A stretch of 64,000 bases of DNA from Alentia gelatinosa (Eukaryota > Annelida > Polychaeta > Phyllodocida > Polynoidae): contig OX465581.1 in assembly GCA_950022655.1 (NCBI GenBank), positions 109,227,125 to 109,291,124 on the forward strand. The letters run 5' to 3'. Positions 1 through 62,600 of the stretch are shown piece after piece (the stretch's first letter is position 1; each line of letters opens with the position of its first letter). The translations under genes were made by a program, and so were the position numbers. Under the pieces are notes generated by a model, which did no database searches, was not told the DNA's origin, and was given only the letters and a program-made list of their open reading frames with translations.

Positions 1-51
1 ACAAAGCCTCTAATGATGGCAGGATGCCTGGAATGTGGATTTTATTCTCAC

Positions 52-21893
<21,842 letters not shown>

Positions 21894-26514: not shown

Positions 26515-27540
26515 AGAATCTAGTGCACTTAGGACCCTAATTCGAACTGTCCCATGTAGGTATATATCTGGAATCAACCGACAAATACTTTATTAAGGCC
26601 TAGGGGCTTGGGAATAATTTAAGAATCTGGATTTTTTGGAATATTTCCTTGAAAATCAGAGAAATTTGACACAAAATGTGCCATAACTTTTTAAAAATCT
26701 AGTGCACTTAGAACCCTAATTCCAACTGTCCCATGTAGCTATATATCTGGAATCGACTGGGAAATACTTTATAAAGGCCTAGGGGCATGGGAACAATTTA
26801 AAAATCTGGATTTTCTGGATTTTCCCCTTGAAAATCAGGGAATTTTGACTGCCGACCCAACCCAAATTGACACAAAATGTGCCGTAACTTTTTAAAAATC
26901 TAGTGAACTAAGAACCCTAATTCCAACTGTCCCATGTAGGGACATACCTGGAATCGACTGACAAATACTTTATTAAGGCCTAGGGGCATGGGAATGAATT
27001 GAAAATAATTGTTTCCCAAGACTGACTGCCTGGAAATCAGGGAAATTTGTCCGCCAGCCCCAACTATTCTAAGACAAAATGGGCCGTAACTTTTAAAAGA
27101 TCTAGTGCACTTAGGACCCTAATTCCAACTGTCCCATGTAGCTATAAATCTGGAATCGACTGACAAATACTTTATTAAGGCCTAGGGGCATGGCAACAAT
27201 TTAAGAATCTGGATTTTCCCTTAAAAATCAGGGAATTTTGACTGCCGACCCAACCCAAACTGGCACAAAATGTGCCGTAACTTTTAAAAAATCTAGCGAA
27301 CTAAGAACCCTAATTCCAACTGTCCCATGTAGGGACATACCTGGAATCGACTGACAAATACTTTATTAAGGCCTAGGGGCATGGGAATGAATTGAAAATA
27401 ATTGTTTCCTAAGACTGACTGCCTGGAAATCAGACAAAATGTGCCGTAACTTGATAAGGCCAAGGGGCATGGGAACAATTTAAGAATCTGGATTTTCTGG
27501 ATTTTTCCCTTGAAAATCAGGGAATTTTGACTGCCAACCC
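26515..27540 (+). repeat. satellite 1: ~200-bp tandem repeat, about 5.5 units
   Basis: The phrase ATCTAGTG (or AGCG) marks units at 26518, 26697, 26898, 27100 and 27291, with spacings of 179, 201, 202 and 191 bp, then a truncated unit. Shared text includes CTAATTCCAACTGTCCCATG and AAGGCCTAGGGGCATGGGAA. Non-coding. Confidence 0.85.
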
Positions 27541-30500
27541 AAACAATTGGCAGAGTTTGGGTGACTTTAGATGGGGGCGCCACAGAGAAATGACTGATTT
27601 TGGGGGTTCACCTGTGAAAAGTCAAAGTTTCAAAAATGTTCCCTATTAACAAGGCCCTGCTTATGTATTTAGCTGTCTTCCCTAATGTGAAAGCTACTTA
27701 GAACAGTTGAAATTATATTCCTAGCCCTTCTGGGAGAGTCCAAACAATTGGCAGAGTTTGGGTGACTTTAGATGGGGGCGCCACAGAGAAATGACTGATT
27801 TTGGGGGGTTCACCTGTGAAAAGTCAAAGTTTCCAAAATGTTCCCTGTCAACCAGGCCTTGCTTATGTATTTAGCTGTCTTCCCCAATGTGAAACCTACT
27901 CAGAACAGTTGAAATTATATTCCTAGCCCTTCTGGGAGTTTCCAAACAATTGGCAGAGTTTGGGTGACTTTAGATGATGGCACCACTGAGAAATGACTGA
28001 TTTTGGGGGGTTCACCTGTGAAAAGTCAAAGTTTTCAAAATTTTCCCATTCAACCAGGCCTTTCTAAAGTATTTAGCTGTCTTCCCTAATGTGAAACCTA
28101 CTCAGAACAGTTAAAATTATATTCCTAGCCTTTCTGGGAGAGTCCAAACAATTGGCAGAGTTTGGGTGACTTTAGATGGGGGCGCCACAGAGAAATGACT
28201 GATTTCGGGGGGTTCACCTGTGAAAAGTTAAAGTTTCAAAAATGTTCCCTGTCAACCAGGCTTTTCTAAAGTATTTAGCTGTCTTCCCCAATGTGGAACC
28301 TACTCAAAACAGTTCTAGTTATATTCCTAGCCCTTCTGGGAATTTCCAAACAATTGGCAGAGTCTGGGTGACTTTAGATGATGGCGCCACTGAGAAATGA
28401 CTGATTTTGGGGGATTCACCTATGAAAAGTCAAAGTTTCAAAAATGTTCTTTGTCAACCAAGCCTTGCTTATGTATTTAGCTGTCTTCCCTAATGTGAGA
28501 GCTACTTAGAACAGTTGAAATTATATTCCTAGCCCTTCTGGGAGTTTCCAAACAATTGGCAGAGTTTGGGTGACTTTAGATGGGGGCACCACAGAGAAAT
28601 GACTGATTTTGGGGGGTTCACCTGTGAAAAGTCAAAGTTTCAAAAATGTTCTTTGTCAACCAGGCCTTGCTTATGTATTTAGCTGTCTTCCCCAATGTGA
28701 AAGCTACTCAGAACAGTTGAAATTATATTCCTAGCCCTTCTGGGGGAGTCCAAACAATTGGCAGAGTTTGGGTGACTTTAGATGGGGGCGCCACAGAGAA
28801 ATGACTGATTTTGGGGGGTTCAACTGTGAAAAGTCAAAGTTTCAAAAATGTTCCCATTCAACCAGGCTTTTCTAAAGTATTTAGCTGTCTTCCCCAATGT
28901 GGAACCTACTCAAAACAGTTCTAGTTATATTCCTAGCCCTTCGGGGAATTTCCAAACAATTGGCAGAGTCTGGGTGACTTTAGATGATGGCGCCACTGAG
29001 AAATAACTGATTTTGGGGAGTTCACCTATGAAAAGTCAAAGTTTCAAAAATGTTCCCTGTCAACCAGACCTTGCTTATGTATTTAGCTGTCTTCCCCAAT
29101 GTGAAAGCTACTCAGAACAGTTGAAATCATATTCCTAGCCCTTCTGGGAGTTTCCAAACAATTGGCAGAGTTTGGGTGACTTTAGATGGGGGCACCACAG
29201 AGAAATGACTGATTTTGGGGGGTTCACCTGTGAAAAGTCAAAGTTTCAAAAATGTTCTTTGTCAACCAGGCCTTGCTTATGTATTTAGCTGTCTTCCCCA
29301 ATGTGGAAGCTACTCAGAACAGTTGAAATTATATTCCTAGCCCTTCTGGGAGAGTCCAAACAATTGGCAGAGTCTGGGTGACTTTAGATGATGGCGCCAC
29401 TGAGAAATGACTGATTTTGGGGGGTTCAACTGTGAAAAGTCAAAGTTTCAAAAATGTTCCCATTCAACCAGGCTTTTCTAAAGTATTTAGCTGTCTTCCC
29501 CAATGTGGAACCTACTCAAAACAGTTCTAGTTATATTCCTAGCCCTTCTGGGAATTTCCAAACAATTGGCAGAGTCTGGGTGACTTTAGATGATGGCGCC
29601 ACTGAGAAATGACTGATTTTGGGGGGTTCACCTATGAAAAGTCAAAGTTTCAAAAATGTTCCCTGTCAACCAGGCCTTGCTTATGTATTTAGCTGTCTTC
29701 CCTAATGTGAAAGCTACTTAGAACAGTTGAAATTATATTCCTAGCCCTTCTGGAAGTTTCCAAACAATTGGCAGAGTTTGGGTGACTTTAGATGGGGGTG
29801 CCACAGAGAAATGACTGATTTTGGGGGGTTCACCTGTGAAAAGTCAAAGTTTCCAAAATGTTCCCTGTCAACCAGGCCTTGCTTATGTATTTAGCTGTCT
29901 TCCCCAATGTGAAACCTACTCAGAACAGTTGAAATTATATTCCTAACCCTTCTGGGAGTTTCCAAACAATTGGCAGAGTTTGGGTGACTTTAGATGGGGG
30001 TGCCACAGAGAAATGACTGATTTTGGGGGGTTCACCTGTGAAAAGTCAAAGTTTCCAAAATGTTCCCTGTCAACCAGGCCTTGCTTATGTATTTAGCTGT
30101 CTTCCCCAATGTGAAACCTACTCAGAACAGTTGAAATTATATTCCTAACCCTTCTGGGAGTTTCCAAACAATTGGCAGAGTTTGGGTGACTTTAGATGGG
30201 GGCGCCACAGAGAAATGACTGATTTTGGGGGGTTCAACTGTGAAAAGTCAAAGTTTCAAAAATGTTCCCATTCAACCAGGCTTTTCTAAAGTATTTAGCT
30301 GTCTTCCCCAATGTGGAACCTACTCAAAACAGTTCTAGTTATATTCCTAGCCCTTCGGGGAATTTCCAAACAATTGGCAGAGTCTGGGTGACTTTAGATG
30401 ATGGCGCCACTGAGAAATAACTGATTTTGGGGAGTTCACCTATGAAAAGTCAAAGTTTCAAAAATGTTCCCTGTCAACCAGACCTTGCTTATGTATTTAG

Positions 30501-33185
30501 CTGTCTTCCCCAATGTGAAAGCTACTCAGAACAGTTGAAATCATATTCCTAGCCCTTCTGGGAGTTTCCAAACAATTGGCAGAGTTTGGGTGACTTTAGA
30601 TGATGGCGCCACTGAGAAATGACTGATTTTGGGGGGTTCACCTATGAAAAGTCAAAGTTTCAAAAATGTTCCCTGTCAACCAGGCCTTGCTTATGTATTT
30701 AGCTGTCTTCCCTAATGTGAAAGCTACTTAGAACAGTTGAAATTATATTCCTAGCCCTTCTGGAAGTTTCCAAACAATTGGCAGAGTTTGGGTGACTTTA
30801 GATGGGGGTGCCACAGAGAAATGACTGATTTTGGGGGGTTCACCTGTGAAAAGTCAAAGTTTCCAAAATGTTCCCTGTCAACCAGGCCTTGCTTATGTAT
30901 TTAGCTGTCTTCCCCAATGTGAAACCTACTCAGAACAGTTGAAATTATATTCCTAACCCTTCTGGGAGTTTCCAAACAATTGGCAGAGTTTGGGTGACTT
31001 TAGATGATGGCACCACTGAGAAATGACTGATTTTGGGGGGTTCACCTGTGAAAAGTCAAAGTTTTCAAAATGTTCCCATTCAACCAGGCCTTTCTAAAGT
31101 ATTTAGCTGTCTTCCCTAATGTGAAACCTACTCAGAACAGTTAAAATTATATTCCTAGCCTTTCTGGGAGAGTCCAAACAATTGGCAGAGTTTGGGTGAC
31201 TTTAGATGGGGGCGCCACAGAGAAATGACTGATTTCGGGGGGTTCACCTGTGAAAAGTTAAAGTTTCAAAAATGTTCCCTGTCAACCAGGCTTTTCTAAA
31301 GTATTTAGCTGTCTTCCCCAATGTGGAACCTACTCAAAACAGTTCTAGTTATATTCCTAGCCCTTCTGGGAGTTTCCAAACAATTGGCAGAGTTTGGGTG
31401 ACTTTAGATGATGGCACCACTGAGAAATGACTGATTTTGGGGGGTTCACCTGTGAAAAGTCAAAGTTTCAAAAATGTTCTTTGTCAACCAGGCCTTGCTT
31501 ATGTATTTAGCTGTCTTCCCCAATGTGAAACCTACTCAGAACAGTTGAAATTATATTCCTAGCCCTTCTGGGAGTTTCCAAACAATTGGCAGAGTTTGGG
31601 TTACTTTAGATGATGGCACCACTGAGAAATGACTGATTTTGGGGGGTTCACCTGTGAAAAGTCAAAGTTTTCAAAATGTTCCCATTCAACCAGGCCTTTC
31701 TAAAGTATTTAGCTGTCTTCCCTAATGTGAAACCTACTCAGAACAGTTAAAATTATATTCCTAGCCTTTCTGGGAGAGTCCAAACAATTGGCAGAGTTTG
31801 GGTGACTTTAGATGGGGGCGCCACAGAGAAATGACTGATTTCGGGGGGTTCACCTGTGAAAAGTTAAAGTTTCAAAAATGTTCCCTGTCAACCAGGCTTT
31901 TCTAAAGTATTTAGCTGTCTTCCCCAATGTGGAACCTACTCAAAACAGTTCTAGTTATATTCCTAGCCCTTCTGGGAATTTCCAAACAATTGGCAGAGTC
32001 TGGGTGACTTTAGATGATGGCGCCACTGAGAAATGACTGATTTTGGGGGATTCACCTATGAAAAGTCAAAGTTTCAAAAATGTTCCCTGTCAACCAGGCC
32101 TTGCTTATGTATTTAGCTGTCTTCCCTTATGTGAGAGCTACTTAGAACAGTTGAAATTATATTCCTAGCCCTTCTGGGAGTTTCCAAACAATTGGCAGAG
32201 TTTGGGTGACTTTAGATGGGGGCACCACAGAGAAATGACTGATTTTGGGGGGTTCACCTGTGAAAAGTCAAAGTTTCAAAAATGTTCTTTGTCAACCAGG
32301 CCTTGCTTATGTATTTAGCTGTCTTCCCCAATGTGAAAGCTACTCAGAACAGTTGAAATTATATTCCTAGCCCTTCTGGGGGAGTCCAAACAATTGGCAG
32401 AGTTTGGGTGACTTTAGATGGGGGCGCCACAGAGAAATGACTGATTTTGGGGGGTTCAACTGTGAAAAGTCAAAGTTTCAAAAATGTTCCCATTCAACCA
32501 GGCTTTTCTAAAGTATTTAGCTGTCTTCCCCAATGTGGAACCTACTCAAAACAGTTCTAGTTATATTCCTAGCCCTTCTGGGAATTTCCAAACAATTGGC
32601 AGAGTCTGGGTGACTTTAGATGATGGCGCCACTGAGAAATGACTGATTTTGGGGGGTTCACCTGTGAAAAGTCAAAGTTTCAAAAATGTTCCCTGTTAAC
32701 CAGGCCCTGCTTATGTATTTAGCTGTCTTCCCCAATGTGAAAACTACTCAGAACAGTTGAAATCATATTCCTAGCCCTTCTGGGAGAGTCCGAACAATTG
32801 GCAGAGTTTGGGTGACTTTAGATGGGGGCGCCACAGAGAAATGACTGATTTTGGGGGCTCACCTGTGAAAAGTCAGAGTTTCAAAAATGTTCCCTGTTAA
32901 CCAGGCCCTGCTTATGTATTTAGCTGTCTTCCCCAATGTGAAAACTACTCAGAACAGTTGAAATCATATTCCTAGCCCTTCTGTGAGTTTCCAAACTAAT
33001 GGTAGAGTTTGGGTGACTTAGCTCATGGTGCCCCTCAGATATCATGCTTTTTCAGGGAGTACCCGTGAAATCTCCAAAATTTTAAATATTCCCACTCTAG
33101 CAGGCCTTATTAAACTATCTAGCTGTGTTCCCTAATTAGAAACCTACTCAGAACAGTTAGAATTTAAGCTCTATGATTTCTTGTG
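27541..33185 (+). repeat. satellite 2: 28 units of 202 bp
   Basis: CAATTGGCAGAG marks units at 27544, 27745, 27947, 28149, 28351 and so on to 32795. Every spacing I counted is 202 bp except the first (201), and a diverged last unit ends at about 33,185. Recurrent text includes GTGAAAAGTCAAAGTTT and CTTATGTATTTAGCTGTCTT. Units carry shared diagnostic variants showing block duplication. There is no coding frame across units. Confidence 0.95.
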
Positions 33186-33568: not shown

Positions 33569-34761
33569 ACGCATAGCAAAACACGGCGGCACGCCGCTTG
33601 CCTGTTCATAGATACAGGTGCGTGGTCATGTATAGGCCCATGTACAGAATATTTGGGGAATCATTTAATAACAGTATATTTAGTATACCGGGAAGTTGTA
33701 ATTGAAAAACTCAATGTAAATTCTTTGAGGGATGCAATTAATTAATTTAAAAAATGACCTTAGTTTAGGCCACTTATATCATCTTTTCTAGTTACTTTGA
33801 ACCCCAATACGATGTTATTTGTGGTTTAAGCCGTATACCTTTCGAGAAACATAAGCGATCACTATTGGATGTATAGGCCGCGTCCTGGGCAGTGTAGACG
33901 ATTTAGCATTAGGTCCATACTACATATATACCCCTCCCCACTTCCACATTCACTATACACCGCTTCCCTGACTCAACTCCCGTTTTAGGGTAGGTCTCGA
34001 ATGCCATAGACCTTCAGCGGGTTTTCTACATTGACCCAGGGCGTTGACCCATCGGGATTGAGTTACATTATTTTGGTTGACTTGACCAGGTAGCCGGTAA
34101 AGTGCGGAAGCTTCATACTGTAATCATGGACAGTGCACAGTGTCCATGCTGTAATGCACTTTATCCTAAGTTGTTGAATTATTTAAGGAATATTAATAAT
34201 CAAAGACTTGAGCAAGTCTAGGGTTAGGGTCACTTTAGGGTTAGAGTGGGGTTACAGCCCTGCTGGGTCAGGGCTAGGAGGACTAGCTCTTTAGTCGTAG
34301 GCTATACTTAGGGTTGTCTGGTACCGAGTCAACTTTATTCTAGGTGGCGGGCTGTGTTTACCTCGGGCCGCGGTACCCCCAGGCTGAGTGTCTTCGTATT
34401 CTGATAATGCTGGTTAGAACATGCACCTAGCGATATGCCTACATGGTACTATTGATAGGGACGTGTTAAATATAGACTGACAGAGGAGCTGCTACTGTAA
34501 ATGCCATACAATGTGTCCCATAGTAGGTCATACCACGGACCTGTCATCCAAGTCCGTGGTCACAGGAATTGTACCATGGTCAAAGTCCAATAGCCATGAT
34601 TATCACTGAGCCCCCGGGACAGATGCAAGAGGTGGGACACGCACTGTGACACGCACGTCTCTGGAAACTATAGCGACTTGGCAGAGCTTAACGCCTTCAA
34701 CCTGCCAGCTTCCCTCGTAAATAACGGGAACAACACAAAACCCACTAGCACAACAGACACG
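33569..34761. other. upstream region of mARC
   Basis: No gene. Short telomere-like TTAGGG runs occur at about 34,219-34,245. A small hairpin (CCACGGAC / GTCCGTGG) lies at about 34,533-34,559. No TATA box was recognised; the mARC transcription start is not located. Confidence 0.3.
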
Positions 34762-35015
34762 ATGCATTCAGAGTGGATAAGCGACAGAGCGACGGTGTCT
34801 GCCATCGTACTCGGTGTTACTTTCATGGCGTACTTTCTCTACAAGAAGTTCTCTCAGGCGCCGATAAAGGTGCCACCGGAGGCCGTGGCTGTGGGGACAG
34901 TCAAGAAACTGTTTATCTATCCAGTCAAGTCAGCCATGGCGATGGCGGCAATGGAGAGTGTCCGCTGTGTCCGCGAGGGGCTGATCACTGACGACAACGA
35001 TGATGTGAGAGACAG
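34762..35015 (+). CDS. mARC: mARC exon 1: membrane anchor and start of MOSC barrel
   Basis: Codes 84 residues plus two bases of an Arg codon, then donor gttggt. It begins MHSEWISD, followed by the hydrophobic anchor and a Lys pair. The reading frame stays open upstream to at least 34678, so a longer N-terminus from an unseen upstream exon cannot be excluded, but anchor placement fits this start. Confidence 0.88.
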
Positions 35016-38000
35016 GTTGGTGTAGACGTTACTAACAAGTCAGTGGTGCATGGACACCGATGACAAGGGGTTGGGAGCATGAGTTAGTCAGGGTGTCCGA
35101 CCCTCGACTCTCGTTTTAGGGTCTCACCCCAATGATCATTCTGTGATTTTGCTTTACATGGTGAATATAGACGTATTTTGGCTCAGGACATTGTCCCCCT
35201 ACACTTCCTACATACAATGATACTTATGCATATATAATCAATTTGGCAATTTAAATGTTGTGCCACCCTACAACAGCATATCTCGGGTACTTTGTATTAC
35301 CAAGTGAACCGATATGACTGCACTTGACATTCATTAAGGACATTTAGAAATGATGAAGCAGTAGTCGTATGAGTGACTGGACAATCTTTATAAGTGGAAT
35401 TCAATATCAATGGTTAAGCAGGTTTGAACAATACCATTTAACATGTAACCATTATTATTACTATCATGAATTTGATCTGTTTTACTTATGAGTGTGAGTT
35501 TGCAGTGAACTATTGTAACCACATAAAGTGAATGTGAGATAAGCATGTTCGTAGTGCTCTAGCAAGGTTACATATCAGGATTGCCTCTCAGGATATTAAA
35601 GTTGCATACTAAGAATTTCAGTATTCGTCCTTATAATAGGGAAACTAGTTAACCTAATTGGGACAGCTTATCGTACCGCGTTACTTTCGATAGAATTATC
35701 GCACGAGCTCGCAGAGCAAGTGCGATAATTCTATTGAAAGTAACATGCGAAGTTTCTCCAATTAGAAATTGGAAAACGATGGTTCATCGGGGAACAGGCG
35801 GCTGTAGTGCTGCCAGTCAGTCGGGAGTTGATCCTTTACTTACCCAGGGCGACATTAGGAAGTTGAGCAATGTCAGGGTTTTTTAATTTTTTTTTATACT
35901 GGAGTATCCATCTAGGGTTAGGATACCCTGTTTTCGGTGGGCTCCAGTGGTGTATTTATTTCCTGGCATGGGTGAGCAGCTCATCCCAGCTCTAACCACT
36001 GTCGAGTAATATGAGTAATTCTCCATAGAGGAAACATATGAATGTTTAGGGTCAGAGCTGGTATCCCATCGAGTTTGAATCGTGTAGTAATTCACAAGGT
36101 GCAGCCACGTGAATTACATAGTGATTCTAACCAGATGGGATCGAGATCTGACCCTAAACTTGAATAGGTTTCTGAATTGATCTCACTCTTTACATTGATT
36201 AAATGGCTGACCTTTGTATCAGTACATCATCGAGTATTTTTTTCTAAATACTCAATGGGCATTGGATAAGAGTTGCCAATGTTAAGTCTATGGGCAAAAG
36301 CACCAGGGGTGAGATAAAAAATATAGATCTAACTCTAAAATGACCGGAAGTGTGAAATACATGTGCTGTATGAGTACCGGTACCGCACTCTTCCATTGGC
36401 AATGGAAATAACCTCACAGCCCAGTTAGTTATTTTTTCACAGATATTCAGTTGACACCTTACATTCCTTCATTCACAGCCTCCCTTCCCCTCCCTTCCCC
36501 CTAGATTATAGATACAGCTGTTTATTACGCTTCGTAGTCCGGTTTAATTCTTGAGAGGTTCCACCGTTAGTTTGAGATTTATGAGCTTAGCGAGTGTCTG
36601 ATAGATTAACTAGGACACGCTTGTGTGACCTCAAGTTTGTGCCGCTGCTACTGATGTAGAGAGACAGTTGTAGAATTACTTTCGCTAATTATGAGTTATA
36701 CACATATATATTATGTTTCTTGCTTTAGGTTTTGAACCATGTATTTAGACCAACTACATATGTATGCATATATGTTAGATAAACGAATGGGAAACATGGA
36801 GTAGCCTAGATTCAGACCAGACTGTCACGTACCGCCAGCGTTTACAGCAGAAATACAATCGCATAACTCACGCCGTCCACTGTTAGGGTATTTGTATCAT
36901 GTGTGGTGTGGGAATATGGACGATATCAAGGCTACATGTGGTAGGGGACTGACCTTTAAAGGTTTTGCACCCTTCCCAGGCTCCTTGTCTGGGCTAGCTT
37001 TGGAAATGAATAGTAGTTAGACAGAGCCTAGCCTTTCGGAAATACAATTGATAGTTTTTGATATATTTATTATAGATCAATAAGTCAAATAACCAGTATT
37101 ATTCCCTACTTGCCAAAGACTTTACAGTATTTTCTTTATCTCTAAAGCTATGATGTGAAACCGAAAGTAGGGGAATGCACACACTGCATTCTACAGCATC
37201 ATGGTGTCTGTCTTCTTCCTTCCTGATTCCCACAAATAAGACAAAATACAACAACTAATGTGTGGTTTGACGCGGCGTACCGTTACGCTACCACGAATGC
37301 CTACCCGTGCCCGAGCTCTCTACCTTGTTGACTCTGTCACAGATTTCCTCCGTTCTGATTGGCTGTTGCTCGCCAAACAAAATCTTGTACCTTAGTAACG
37401 TGTGTGGTCTGTTTGGGACCAGCGAAACTCCGCTGTGTCCTCTGGGTTTACAGGCTTTTTCTATGTCGGCTTCGCTGGTAGCCGGCCTCTTCCCGCGGTG
37501 TCTCCGCTGGGTGCCCTGTAAACGCACTGTGAATCTCTGATTCACTCGCTTGTACCTAGGGTGGCACTGAAGCTGGTGCTTGGTTGGTGCCTACCATTTC
37601 TAATGGTATGCTACCGTGACAGACCGAAATACTCGCGTGGTGTTGACATGGACATCTGCCCTTGTTCTACAGCCGTATTCTGTTGTTACTAGCGACTTCG
37701 TCGTGTCGTATTTGAGAGGGTGAGGGCTTAGTGGCACCCCCTACTATTAATACCTGAAACTATGAATTAGTTCCCAACCATCATTTCATGTGACACCAAT
37801 TTTACCGACTATGAAAAACGAAAAAACTTTCCGCGGAAAGCGAACTACCGACTTTCGCATTCCCAAACGTTAGCCCTGCCCACTGCTCCAGGAAGATGGG
37901 TTATTAGACCAGACCAAATACTTAGTGCAGTGGTGGGTGGGGGGAATCAGCGGAGTTTTGAAAGGGCTACCAGCGAAACTTGAGATCTCATTGGTTTCTC

Positions 38001-41000: not shown

Positions 41001-44000
41001 TCACAATTACAACCAATTTTCAAAACAGAAAGTGGATGGGGGTGGGGTGGGGGATGGCATTATATCCCTGTGGTCGAAAAGCTATGAAATACTAGCCGCT
41101 GCTAGTGATGTAGTATTAATAATGTTCGCTACCCAGAGCCGTAGTGAAAGACCGCTAATATGTAAGTAATCAGAATGATATTTTTGAAGACGATTTTCAG
41201 TTATGTAACAAGGAAGCATATTAACTGTGGGGGAATTGATGCCGTTCTCGTATTTTCCCGAAAATACGTCTAGATGCCGCAGCCCCAACACAATATAATC
41301 ACCTATATATATCTGAAAAAGGGGCTCCTTTGAATCCAACCCTGACCGACTCACTCCCTGGTCCTTTTTATGCTTGCAGGACGTTAGGGCCCACCACCTT
41401 AAAGTCGGGAGGTTAGGGCCCACCCTACACCGGGGGTATGAAAGCCGGGAGGGAGATTTGGCATAATTAGACGTTAGGGCCCACCTATTTTTGCAAAATT
41501 GGTTAATGTTTGAATACTGGAGAACTTGACCCATAAAAAACTCGACCCATAAAAAAATCTTCCCTACTCAAGCATCTCAACTGTGAATAAATACTATATT
41601 TAGTAGTAAGTATAAGTAAGTAACCCTATCCCTAACCCTAACCCTTACCCCATCCCTAACCCTATCCCTAACCCTATCCCTAACCCTTACCATAACCTTA
41701 ACCCTAACCCTAACTCTAACGTCCCGATGAGTGGGCCCTAACGTCCCGACTTTCGGGTGGTGGGCCCTAACGTCTACATATCCCTTTTATTCTCCAGGGC
41801 ATGGATGATCGTGAATGACACCGGGGTGTTCGTGTCACAACGGGCTGAGCCCCGGATGGCCCACATCAAACCATCTGTACCATTCGGAGGAGACATGCTT
41901 CATCTGGAAGCACCTGGACAGACAACCCTCAAGGTGTGCAAATACCTGTCCTCCCGCACAGCCAAGGTCGTCGACGTATCGTGAGTGATTTATAGATTTA
42001 ATCATTATCCATTTTCTCCCCAGTTTATCATTTATTGATCATAAATTGATACAAGTAAAGTTCTCGATGTACAGGAATTGTTCACATCACTGGACTATGT
42101 TCTCTTTTTCAATTATTTGAAGGTAAATGATCATTTAAGCTTATTGCTGTTAATATATTTACTATATACACATGCCGTATATACTGTAAATACGTACCGT
42201 TTCGACATATGACGTAAAAATACTGTACGGACCGCTGGTCCGTACACTAAAATACGGACCACCTTGCCATACACATTTATTAACATATCGGTTGTAAAAA
42301 AATTAAATTAATGATTTTTTTTAAAATTTTGGGTATATAGTTAATATATAACGTCCAACCATGCTTGTACAAGCCACAGAACTCGATGATAATTTACGGT
42401 TTGTACGGAACTCGGCATAAATGCCTCGGTCCGTACAAACCGTAAATTACCATCTCGTTCTGTGAATTGTACAGCATGGTCAGGACGTTCTATATAAGTA
42501 TGCATAGACATTAATCGATGGTTTTCTGGACAGGCGGCCCTGAACCACGAAAGATTGATGCGTATTGATACACGAGCGTCAACCTCGAGTGGGTTACGGA
42601 GCGGCCTGTCCACAAAACCATCATTTGTTGTATCTATTATCCATCTCCTCCAATAAATCAAACCCAGGAATTGCCATATCAAAGGGTATATAACCAATAT
42701 TTTCCCGTACATAATGGCTTTGAGGCCATATACCACGGATTTGAATCTGTTCACCATGGTTATGGTATCTGAGAGTTTCTAAATAATGGGTGGTGGCTTA
42801 CTGAGTCCCAATACATTCTCAGTGGGTATTTTGTTTGCGACGTATAATAAATTTTCTGTGATCATCTACTATGTATATTGCTGTTATATTCGTATATTCT
42901 GAAATATAATTATCTTAATTATCATATTAAACAGAATGTATGGATATCCCCCATGATTATTTCTGTTACCCACAAGTTCACCGTCTGTATACGAGTCTAT
43001 ATCAATCATGTTGGCATGGACATACAACTCTAGAGATACGCTGTCCATGATGTTGGTTATATGACCATACAGTTTACTTATGGGAGGGGGACATCGTCAC
43101 CAGAGCAAATAACTTCAGGGATTTATTTCGAGAGCTGCAGACATCACTGGTAATTCTCCGAGTCATCTGGCGACTTCCGGTTTGAAATCCCCTCCGAATT
43201 GGCTTAACAACGGACATGTCCGCCATCTTGCTGGTGAATACAAAGCGCTGTCAGAGTATAAAATAGTAGAAAACTATACTAATTTACTTTCTAATGTGTA
43301 ATTTACACATGCAATAGTTGAAAAGAGGTTATTTACATTATCTAGACATGATTTAAACATGCAAACTGGAAGGAAATCGTTGTTTCGTCGATTTGTTGAC
43401 ATCGGGTTCGGAGGCTAAACTGAGGCCATCACGTAATCACTTGATCTGAAACTGCCAGGGGGGGGGGGGGGGGGGTCTGGTTTTGCCAAAAGAAAGGCTT
43501 CAGAGTAACTGAATACATCCCCACACATTAAATACCATCAAAAATCAACGTTTGAATTCTCCATAGACTTAGCACTGTGTAGGAGCCATGCCAAGATGGC
43601 TGCCAAGGGGGTTTGTAGCGCCACCTACTTCCAGGTTGACTCGACGAATGACCAACACTCTGTATTTTATCATATCATACAGGGTGTGGGGCAATCATAT
43701 GGATGCGGTTGACTGTGGACAGGAGGCGGCAGACTGGGTGTCAGCCTACCTTGGGCGCCACGGTTTCAGACTGGTTTACCTGCCGCCTGACATGCCGGGC
43801 AGGAAGGTGGTGGAGAGCAAGAATCCAGCTGACAAGGCCTTCAGCAGCCAGGACAGGGTACTTACCTTTTACGAACTACAGTAAAACCCCGCTTCTGGGA
43901 CACCCTACTTAGGGGGACAATTTGCTCGGAAGAGAAATTTTATTTAGTATATTTTAACCTCGCTTAAGGGAGCATCACTCGAATGGGGACACTATGCTCG

Positions 44001-56994: not shown

Positions 56995-57992
56995 TTTGGC
57001 AATTTTTGCGTTGTTAAAGTACAGATCTTTGAGAAAGAAACTGAGATATCTTTAAAAATAATCAGGCAGGGATTAGGATATGCCTACATGTTACTATTCC
57101 CTTCCGTCAAATGGCACGATAGACAGCTCAGGAAAAGGATGCGACTTTTATATCAGCACAGTGGTGACATGGACCACCACTAAAATACCTAGGATGTAAA
57201 TCTGTGATGGTGACAGGCGGTGGTGCAACCCATCACTCCTCTTGCCATACGCAGTCGAGTTTCACCAGAGGGCGTCGCAGTTCGCGGCCGTGTGCGACAA
57301 TTACACGCGACACAAGTTCAAAAGGCTGGGAGACGGTGGACAGTCAATTTAGCCGCCACTGATGACACCGGGTGCCTGCAACCCCCCGGGCAAGACTTGC
57401 TAAACGCAGGACTCAATGAAGTAACCGGGGTGGACGCTGACACGCTTCGCCAAACGTTTGGACTCGTAATCATGTGCACTTGAGAGTTGAGTGTTGTGTA
57501 TCCCGGCCTTTCTTCTATGCTGAATACATACTCTATATAGCAAATTCCGAGTGTAGGCCCTACAAAGGCATTGATTCTGTTGATAGTATCAGTGTTGAAA
57601 TCCCACTCTAATGGTCGTATTAGTCAATTTAGGAAGACACGAACCAAGGTGAACGGTCATGTTTGGTAAACACATCCTTTGGTTATATCTTTCCCCTATA
57701 GAGGGCTCTGAGGTAAGTTACATCCCCTGGTGTCGGGTAAGAAATTAGAGCCTTATGACATGTGTCCATTTGCCATCCTGAACAAATCCAAATCATCAAA
57801 CTGAAAACTTAACTTAAGGGTAGAACCTTGTGATAGAGTGAAAAGAGTAAGGTTATAAGTAGAGCTAAAACTGTTAAGCGTTATACAAACATTGTTTGAA
57901 TTTAAGGCCGGCCTTTGAAAAAGATAACGCCCCTCTTCGGAAAAAGGGAATTGTCTTCATTAATGATATCCTTGATACCTCATAAATGATAT
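56995..57992. other. 5' flank and probable promoter of the dioxygenase gene
   Basis: 57,200-57,480 is GC- and CpG-richer than its surroundings, as expected for a promoter upstream of the minus-strand start at 56994. Plus-strand open frames here have no recognisable product. 57,480-57,990 shows nothing. Confidence 0.3.
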
Positions 57993-58551
57993 GGGTCATT
58001 CCACCAGAAAATGTACTTTTGGTAAAAAAGGGGTAAAAAAATTAAATTTGCCCAAACCAAATTTTCTTTTACTTGTGTGCAAAATATACACTTTCAAGTT
58101 TTAGGAAAACATGATTCAACTGGGATATTAGTGGGGGGTCAGTTTTTGTGAGGCTGCAAAAATTGTAAATATTATTGCCGTCACGTCCGACATATAAAAA
58201 AACACTCATACAAAAGTTGATGATAGAGAAATATATTTTATTTTTTGTAAGACATCAAGTTTGTACCCAGTATGTCAAGCATAGTCTGATACTATAGACA
58301 AGTGGAAATAGTGAACTACTTATACAATCTTTTTCTGTGCTGCCTCAAAGATGCACATACAGAAGGTGTTCTCCAAGGGATTACAGAATGAATTTTGTTT
58401 TTTCTGTCACTATCTAAATACAAAAGTTTCACGTTTTTAAATCACAGAATTAATTTTATAGGTTATATACATGATCTATGTCAAATTAGAAGATGTTCCA
58501 TGCATTATTTCTTGAGCTAATAGCTTCTGGGAAAAAGGTTTAAAAATCTCT

Positions 58552-59600
58552 CGGACGTGATATTTTTAATAACGGACGTGATGGAACAGTAAATTCCACT
58601 TTCTTGATGAGAAATCGGAAATATGTCCCAAATTATTAAAAGTTCATGTTTCCTTTTGAAAATAAATAAATTATCTTCAATTGAACCACATATAAGAGTA
58701 TCTTAAATGCCAATGACCTGTTATTTTTCTTGAAAAACTACAAAGAATGTCCAACTCTTTCTTTCTGATCACACTCAGAATAAAGTAAAGTACATTTTTC
58801 TCTTACATTTTGTGCTAAAAACTGTCTAGAAACCTTTTTTCTTTGCTTTTAAATGCAAAAAATGCTAACTTTAACCTTAATATTCATTGAAATACCACAT
58901 TTTGTATAGACATTATAAATATCTTGGACGTGATATTCTTGATAACGGACGTGACAGACCAGTAACTTCCACTTCCACAAACATGAAATATGGACCAAAA
59001 TCTGAAAAACTTTTGTTTGTTTTTGCTAATATATATATATACATGATTTTCAATTCAACGACCTATAAGAGTACCTTAAATGCCAATGACCTGTTTTTTT
59101 TTCTGGAAAAACTGCAAAGAATATGAAACTCTTACTTCTGATGCCACTCACAATACAGAAGAGTACATTTTTCACTTACATTTTGTGCTAAAAAAGTGTC
59201 TGCAAATCTTTTCTCTATGCTTTTAAATGCCAAAAACGCTAACTTTAACCTTAATATTCATCCAAATGCCACATTTTGTGTGTACATCATAAATCTCTTG
59301 GACGTGATATTTTTAAAAACGGACGTGACAGACCAGTAACTTCCACTTTCTTGATCACAAACATGAAATATGTACAAATTGCTGAGAAAATCTTCTTTGG
59401 TTTTGCAAATATATACATCAGCTTCCATTCAACCATATATAAGAGTACCTTAAATGCCAATGACCTGGTTTTTGGGGAAAAACTGCAAAGAATATCAAAC
59501 TCTTGCTTCTGATACCACTCAGAATACACAAGAGTACATTTTTCATTTACATTTTGTGCAAAGAACCATCTGCAAACCTTTTCTCTATCTTTTTAATTTT
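58552..59600 (+). repeat. three ~373-bp tandem units inside the CGGACGTGA element
   Basis: Units start at 58552, 58925 and 59299. Each opens with two motif copies 21 bp apart, followed by CAGTAAnTTCCACTT, TTAAATGCCAATGACCTG and TACATTTTGTGC. Confidence 0.75.
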
Positions 59601-59715
59601 ATCTTTTTCTCATCTCCTTGTTCCTCCAGTCCTTAGATGAGTCCTTTGGAGGTTTCCTCTCATCCGGAGGTAACGGTTTACACCCCATGCTTTCAAGGTA
59701 TGGCTCATATGTAGG

Positions 59716-59893
59716 GGGCCATCCATAAAGTATGTATGCACTGAGGGGGGGGGGGGGGGGTAGTGGGGATAGGATGGTTAAAATTTTGTGCATAGGCTAC
59801 TTCTGTGTTTTATTGTGAAAAAAAATAAGGTATGGGGGGGTTGGTAGGGTCGAAAATTTGAGATATTGTGTGTACATACTTTATGGATAGCCC
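59716..59893. mobile_element. 178-bp MITE with CCATCCATAAAGTATGTA ends
   Basis: The ends GGGCCATCCATAAAGTATGT and ACATACTTTATGGATAGCCC are inverted with one mismatch. It contains a tract of about 15 G at 59,744-59,760. It is nested in the 57,993-61,930 element. Confidence 0.8.
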
Positions 59894-62079
59894 TAAAACT
59901 GAAAAAAGAGAAAACAAACAAATTAGCAAACTACCTATTAAATAACATTCAAAAGGTACATTTGTTTTCAAAAATTATGTTCTTTGTATGACTATTGTTC
60001 AGACTTATATTTAGAATAGATATTTTGCCCACAAACTTAATATGATGGCTGTAAGAACAAAAATATTACCAAAATCAGATTTTTGCCAAAAATGTCAAAA
60101 AAAGATTTCCTCAAAATGATTTATTTTTTTCATCACACCATAAAATATAACTGTCTTCAGTATTCCAGGTGATTTTATCCAAGGTTTGTCCAAGTGTTAT
60201 AGTTCAGGTATGGTTTTGAAAAATCATGCATCACATCCGACATGAAAATAAACCACTATAGGTAGTAGCTCAATCTCATAATCATTTCAATTTTCGATTA
60301 GATATGGAGTACAATAGGCAAACATTAAGAAAAATCAAAACAGATGATCCTAACCCTCATTTTCATACTTGTTATGAGATGAAACCAAACTGGGCGTCAC
60401 GTCCGACATATATATATCGGACGTGATGGCGGCTACAAAAATGCATGAAAAAAAAATATTTACATGTGGACTTTCTTCACTTTTTCTCCCTAGACTTATG
60501 AAATGACACTTGGTGCACATAATGAACAACTTTCGTTACTGTATTCTTGTAATTTAATCTCATTCAAACATAGTTCCTAGTCAATTCGATGAAAAAACTT
60601 CACCTATATCACGTCCGTGATGGCTATTACCACATGATAGGTGTACAACCTGAGTCCAGATACTACACAGTCTTTTAAACATACATTTTGTCATTGGGAA
60701 TAGATCGTAATATATATATATTCTGCACCTCTTTGCACATTTTCTCATAGATCAATCGAAAGAAGAATTTCCATGTCGGACATGATATGGCTAAACAAAT
60801 TTTTTTGAAAAATTCACTAAGACATTGAAAATACCCCCAACCTTTCCAGTAGTGGCCATGTTGGGAACTCATCAATCTACCCTTTTATTCAAACCACAAA
60901 CTTTCGGTAAATACTTGTGAACTTTTCAAGAAAATGGATTCTACAGAATCACAAACTCCAAGTTATCACTATTAACACAGAAAATCATGTCCAGGATGGA
61001 AAAATAATGCTAGCATCGAAGAAATCTGCACTACTCACATGAGCTGGATGTCTCCTCAAGCCGCTGAACCGCCGGAGTGGAGGCGAATGCACAGTTAAAA
61101 GGGATAACATCCGGTTCTTGTGATCAGCTTTCCCGCCTTCGATTAATCTCTCGGACGTGATAAATATCACGGACGTGATTCCTTCAAAATTACTTTCCCT
61201 GTTCTCGCATAGTGAAGGCACTTTGGAAGCATTTTATTACTATTACACTACAGACCCTATGGCCACATTATTCAGTAATTTTTGTACCAAGTTAGCACCA
61301 ATATGGAGAAGTGGAGAGTGCTAAATGCAACTCATCACATCCGTGATATCAATTGTGTAAAATCGATTTTTTTTCGTAATTCGGCTGGGAAAAGAACCCT
61401 GTTGCAGTTGACCTAAAATCATATACATATGTGAAAAATTGATGTATGTCCAGAGTTTTAAGTGCATGTTTGGGAAATATACCATTAAAATATATTGTCA
61501 TCAGGCTATGCCAAATATAACCTATAGCATTTGCTGAAAAAGCACACTTTTCATTGAAATACACTTAAAAAATTTGCGGAGCCTTAGAAATAAGGGAAAA
61601 TACTACTAAACAACAGCCAATTTACATAACTTCAGGAAATAAATCAATTAGGGAATATATATTAATAGTTTCCACAAAAGAAATAGTGCTAAACTTTAGA
61701 AATATCAAAAAGACATGCACTTTTTTGCTAATTTCTCACTTTGAAAGTCCACAGATTAAAAAATAATGCAGATAGACCAATAAAAGTAATGATTTTCTGA
61801 AAGGGCAGGGTGTTTTCTTTGCACAGAAAAAAAAATTCATTAAAAAAATTCATTTATAATGAAATTATAGCCCATTAACCCCCAAAAAGTATGATTTTCA
61901 CCAAAAGTACATTTTCTGGTGGAATGACCCTTATATTATCCTTGATGAAATAATAGTAGCGTCAGAATAGGTGGGGACAGGGGGCTACTTTTTTAAGGAC
62001 CTAGAAACAGTTGGCAGCTTCAAATTTTACTCAATCAAGGATGAAAACAGTGAAATTCAGAACCTAAAGTACTACCGTA

Positions 62080-62600
62080 TGCTAAGCTTTGACATTTCAC
62101 CATAGAAAAATGTCAAAGTCCAGTGGCGTCAGAATAGGGGGGGGGGGGGGCGGGGGGGGGGGCGACTGCCCCCCCCTTTTTTGCCAGACCAAAAAAGTCA
62201 GCAGCTTCAAAAATTACTCAAACAGTTGTAAAACCTGTCTTGACTTTTCAGCATCGAAAAAATGTCATAGTCTGACTTTTTGGCATGCAATGATGACTAA
62301 GCCCTGACTTTTCACCGTGGAAAAGTGTCAAAGTCTGACTTTTTGCATGCAATGATGGCTAAGCCCTGACTTTTCACCGTGGAAAAGTGTCAAAGTCTGA
62401 CTTTCTAGCGTGCAATGATGGCTAAGCCCTGACTTTTCATTGCGGAAAAGTGTCAAAGTCTGACTTTTTAGTGTGCAATGATGGCTAAGCCCTGACTTTT
62501 CACTGTGGGCAAAATATCAAAGTCTGAATTTTTAGTGTGCAATGATGACTAAGAGCTGACTTTTCACAGAATTCTTGCAGATTCACAGTAAATCCAGTGG
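62080..62600 (+). repeat. ~62-bp tandem repeat, about six degenerate units
   Basis: Unit text: GTGTCAAAGTCTGACTTTT, TGCAATGATGGCTAAG, CCCTGACTTTTCACCGTGG. The first unit is separated from the rest by the poly-G side of the foldback element starting at 62,121. Confidence 0.75.

Follow-up and report, generated by a model that had tools for sequence, protein, structure and literature searches.

A Non-Autonomous DNA Transposon of Alentia gelatinosa with a Conserved, Repeated CpG-Bearing Word in Both Arms

Introduction

The closest described counterparts of the element considered here, a unit of 3.9 kb within a 64,000-nt stretch of the genome of the polychaete Alentia gelatinosa (contig OX465581.1; this stretch is called the window, and coordinates are positions in it, with strands of sites given as + or -), are the plant transposon En/Spm (CACTA) and Sola2. 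In En/Spm, as described in the part of the literature used here (PMC2613891), the subterminal repeats are bound by the element-encoded protein TNPA; like our element it has a short CpG-bearing word, present many times in both arms, and non-autonomous deletion derivatives which keep the ends and the sites. According to the same partial account, however, En/Spm has a 3-bp duplication and CACTA ends, whereas here the duplication is 4 bp (WTAW) and the ends read GGGTCATTCC; further, here there is no match to tnp2, sites extend inward beyond 1 kb, and a paired unit has been multiplied into a tandem repeat of 374 bp. An element-encoded protein is the binder in En/Spm and the proposed binder in the annelid element.

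Sola2, in the portion of its description drawn upon (PMC3627910), has an AT-rich 4-bp duplication (AWWT) including ATAT, a transposase of 888 aa, and ends of 12-21 bp. The AT-rich 4-bp duplication including ATAT and a frame of 866 aa are points of likeness; the duplications ATAA and TTAT, which misfit AWWT, and the 31-bp ends are points of difference. The element thus resembles Sola2, but as the comparison was made with the published description only, its superfamily is left unassigned. For Kat1, a domesticated hAT transposase of yeast belonging to another superfamily than this element, subterminal repeats besides the ends matter for activity (as stated in the section of PMC4763223 consulted). 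In the following, the anatomy of the element, its family, its transposase frame and the conservation of its repeated sites are described; moderate confidence is placed in the reading that it is a non-autonomous transposon derivative whose repeated sites would be bound by the element's own protein.

The Element and Its Family

Internal deletion of a cut-and-paste DNA transposon that was active recently gave rise to the unit; the family has terminal inverted repeats at both ends and a target duplication of fixed length (4 bp, WTAW). The inverted ends, which a preliminary description of the window had reported as perfect over 31 bp, are exactly that (Table 1), and with up to three mismatches allowed the two element ends are the only matches in the window. 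In the host assembly (1.234 Gb, 101 contigs) the 31-bp end has 635 matches at two or fewer mismatches and its reversed control has none. When the whole element was used as query, 38 of 1900 candidates were scored, which makes all copy counts lower bounds; at least 29 rows from this genome, the window copy included, cover element positions 1-3938 at 95-100% identity. Both ends, some with a few mismatches, were found in 34 of the 38 fetched copies, and these complete copies have a mean identity of 98.7% to their own consensus; divergence among the 3.9-kb copies is about 1% outside CpG, TpG and CpA. The family is young and has spread by transposition, and the genome search and copy alignment proposed in the preliminary description identify the unit as a transposon copy.

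An exact 4-bp target duplication flanks 28 of the 34 complete copies (ATAT in 17, ATAA in six, TTAT in five), while exact duplications of 3 or 5 bp flank none of the 34. The window copy is among the six with unequal sides; to its right, positions 61931-61934 read TTAT, as opposed to ATAT on the left. The P element makes an 8-bp target duplication; such exact duplications are present in two of the 34 copies, both by length also AT repeats of the 4-bp type, and the P element was thus rejected. CACTA membership was rejected on account of the ends and the missing 3-bp duplication, and piggyBac and Kolobok, which duplicate TTAA (as given in the part of PMC9587614 used), because TTAA is found in none of the 28 exact duplications.

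By eye, end-to-end distances among the 100 end matches listed are mostly about 3.7-4.0 kb; other end pairs among them lie near 8.5 kb or at 10.3-13.5 kb, and a few have other lengths. L019, L020 and L021 have identical flanks within about 50 kb of C1, and for this reason they are taken as duplications of a host segment rather than separate insertions.

Long Copies and the Transposase

Two longer copies have the same ends: copy A (8457 bp, ATAT on both sides) and copy B (11465 bp, ATAA on both sides). The minus strand of B contains two frames, one of 317 aa with a basic start and one of 866 aa, which we infer to be joined by splicing; in A, most of the transposase gene is lost. The 866-aa frame comprises a DDE-type transposase core followed by a chromo/Tudor-like C-terminus, and the acidic triad of the RNase H-like DDE core (D304, D387, E419) is common to 32 aligned rows. 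Copy B, having the same ends and encoding a predicted transposase, is the candidate autonomous relative, that is, the long relative which the preliminary description had suggested looking for; the full element is about 11.5 kb in length, with 31-bp ends and a DDE-type transposase on the minus strand. As the window copy keeps only the first 28 codons, the 3.9-kb type arose by deletion of nearly the whole gene. Just upstream of the transposase start codon is a small nested inverted-repeat element (59716-59893; 26-bp arms, 88% complementary); as it is spanned by the aligned right arms of A and B, it is old.

The 866-aa frame has no match among the transposase models of Pfam or NCBIfam, tnp2 included. 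Relatives numbered 38 in a single-sequence search and 129 in a profile search (120 listed); those named include uncharacterized, hypothetical or unnamed proteins of lancelets, sea urchins, molluscs, moths and a fish, and among the relatives listed in either search none is named as a transposase. With this unnamed animal protein family the transposase shares D304, D387 and E419 in the aligned relatives, and identity to the best relatives among the matches listed is about 43%. The transposase family is widespread in animals, without a Pfam or NCBIfam transposase model.

The Repeated Word and Its Spacing

The word CGGACGTGA is present in the element at ten exact sites and five sites with one mismatch, whereas the rest of the window has no exact site. 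At one or fewer mismatches there are 18 matches in the 64 kb compared with 3.47 expected (maximum of 8 in 100 shuffles), of which 15, including all ten exact ones, are inside the element. In a de novo search of the family consensus no 9-mer is more strongly over-represented, even when a single tandem unit is retained (10 versus 0.005 expected), in agreement with the earlier view that it is far above chance. The ten exact copies are all located where they had been placed; the five one-mismatch copies also exist, one of them at 61335 and not at 61334, and each differs from the word by a CpG transition. All 15 consensus sites have a T at the third base ahead of the word, and their 5′ flank is rich in A and T. 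At the decayed sixteenth site (60985), all five of the aligned longer copies (A, B, L055, L056 and L057) have CGGACATGA.

Each of the 34 complete copies has 7 to 12 exact sites; none of these 34 lacks the motif, which would have spoken against binding sites. As to the second such concern, that the motif be common outside the family, CGGACGTGA occurs 5137 times in the genome and is not private to the family. Among the first 100 sites listed (29.7 Mb of C1), 33 belong to five family elements whose ends were recognised, and the remaining 67 are dispersed; inspection of these 100 by eye showed no other cluster of at least three sites within 5 kb.

Four pairs of sites had been described as exactly 21 bp, or two helical turns, apart and thus as facing the same side of the DNA. 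The spacings exist, but 58552/58573, 58925/58946 and 59299/59320 all come from a single tandem repeat with a period of about 374 bp and hence represent one event, and the pair 60397/60418 is inverted (minus, then plus), so that 21 bp from start to start means a different geometry there. Nor is there helical phasing among nine right-arm positions, 2304 of 5000 random placements being at least as good, and the same-face argument is weak. Genome-wide, direct pairs at exactly 21 bp number 143; of the 100 listed, 96 carry a spacer of the kind seen in this element, three belong to an unrelated 21-bp satellite on C6 (C6:2173996-2174067), the unit of which happens to include the 9-mer, and one is unrelated. 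Paired tandem units number nine in A and six in B. The 21-bp pairing is a property of one repeat unit, expanded in long copies, and not a rule of the array. Separately, four distances of 165-168 bp were noticed post hoc among the right-arm sites (60231-61343), a pattern that is rare in random placements (70 of 5000).

It might be argued that the repetition is a functionless by-product of tandem duplication within the element, since tandem units account for six of the 15 sites and direct pairs at 21 bp almost always descend from that unit. Yet the excess given above persists with one unit kept, the right-arm segments are without clear similarity to one another or to the tandem unit (largest z 3.2), and the motif is conserved across subfamilies; we disfavour this explanation and regard it as very improbable.

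Conservation of the Word and the Candidate Binder

Right arms were aligned for the 3.9-kb consensus and for the copies A, B, L055 and L056. With A and B agreeing at 98.9% and L055 and L056 at 96%, they constitute three lineages, which are 90-92% alike. Across these, non-CpG columns vary in 1/47 cases within the motif, 24/206 in its 15-bp flanks and 215/1588 elsewhere, where the choice of sites by motif match introduces some bias toward conservation; 10 of 10000 random block sets were as low in variation as the motif columns. CpG columns vary in 14/34 cases within the motif and 51/93 outside, and the consensus and B, compared pairwise, differ at 0/47 non-CpG positions of the motif versus 192/2151. 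CpG loss in the 3.9-kb copies is also lower in the motif (mean 8.6% versus 18.6% for other CpGs, p 0.003), and this although CpG is strongly depleted in the rest of the element (0.33). The word remained nearly unchanged while the rest drifted and is, for that reason, probably where a protein docks that mobilises or regulates the element. The earlier proposal of binding sites thus fits, in that the 9-mer is more conserved than its surroundings between subfamilies; its pairing, which traces to one unit, lends no such support.

Binding of a protein to the sites, the identity of that protein and the effect of its binding are inferences. The transposase, or the product of its basic first exon, may bind sites in both arms, which would help to bring the element ends together; sites upstream of the transposase start might also tune transcription of the gene, and the 3.9-kb type, keeping ends and sites, would have been moved in trans.

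The main rival explanation is that a host transcription factor binds the sites and the array is an enhancer or promoter driving the transposase gene. Eight sites lie upstream of the start codon, at distances of roughly 0.5-1.7 kb, with a loose, enhancer-like orientation and spacing, three sites are near-palindromic (ATCACG-GA-CGTGAT type), and the ACGTG of the core presumably resembles the words of bZIP or bHLH-PAS factors. On the other hand, the left array is located past the 3′ end of the gene and the conserved word, with its invariant T, is longer than a simple half-site; we consider this rival possible but rather doubtful, and lean towards the element's own protein as the most likely binder.

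Alternatively, the sites might serve the host in recognising and silencing the element, perhaps through a repressor of the methyl-CpG or zinc-finger type, and persist because the source copies had them. Two CpGs per site, and the fact that all changes in the window's sites are CpG transitions, would be in keeping with this; a site serving only silencing should, however, vanish from transposing copies, yet it is kept across subfamilies, which renders this possibility quite improbable.

Several observations weigh against binding by an element-encoded protein. The 31-bp ends contain no copy of the motif. Within the 3.9-kb family, singletons per position are 0.136 in the motif and 0.165 outside for non-CpG, and 0.48 and 0.47 for CpG, positions, and the close flanks of the motif are also quiet; motif singletons near background are, though, what is expected of dispersed neutral copies. 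The right-arm motif cluster is gone from a 1.77-kb derivative (L058 201-1970) whose ends are intact and which has ATAT on either side; this derivative either moved without the cluster or lost it later. Finally, the lineage of A and B, the frames of which are open in B, often has T, A or G at the first C of the word. L056, by comparison, retains the full word at seven of nine sites, and from the two observations together the strict core is taken as GGACGTGA; the word, with its two CpGs, is best written YATNWCGGACGTGAY and is, on the reading preferred here, a conserved cis-acting site in both arms.

Other Features of the Window

Coordinates are collected in Table 1. A tandem repeat at 62241-62567 (period 63 bp, 5.2 copies) lies just outside the element. 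Farther away are a satellite array (27539-33019; period 202 bp, 27.1 copies, 91% matches) and a telomere-like array of TAACCC units (41621-41720). The frames 34600-35022 and 43573-43884 match the MOSC N-terminal domain weakly (E 0.0021 and 0.00079, short of the curated cut-off) and are perhaps exons of one host gene.

Table 1. Positions of the element, its sites and the transposase frame
Feature	Position	Strand	Remarks
Whole element	57993..61930		3938 bp, non-autonomous internal-deletion derivative
Left half of 4-bp target duplication	57989..57992		ATAT
Left terminal inverted repeat	57993..58023	+	31 bp, perfect
Right terminal inverted repeat	61900..61930	-	31 bp, perfect
Motif site nearest left end	58181..58189	-	Exact also in long copies A and B
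Tandem repeat	58544..59597	+	Period 374 bp, 2.8 copies, two motif sites 21 bp apart per copy
Transposase-gene remnant	59599..59688	-	Start codon and 28 codons shared with the 317-aa first frame, one extra codon, stop
Right-arm motif cluster	60231..61343		Upstream of transposase start codon; conserved across subfamilies
Right-arm sites	60231, 60397, 60418, 60609, 60777, 61152, 61170, 61335	-, -, +, -, +, +, +, -	
Inverted motif pair	60397..60426		30-bp imperfect palindrome
Decayed sixteenth motif site	60985..60993	-	TGGACATGA, two-mismatch match
866-aa transposase frame	L054 91-2688	-	Predicted; DDE core, chromo/Tudor-like C-terminus

Conclusions

A more speculative reading, considered less likely than not, is that an animal transposon lineage with an unannotated transposase (DDE core and chromo/Tudor-like C-terminus) evolved a long two-arm array of CpG-bearing sites, including the amplified 374-bp paired unit, independently of En/Spm of plants, and that the number of sites and CpG methylation would set the activity of a copy. 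The family is young, its transposase frames are apparently open, and it combines matching non-autonomous copies with a clearly delimited candidate word for binding; it therefore allows a direct test of Spm-like site arrays in transposons outside plants, and a working description of the transposase family would help to annotate many genomes.
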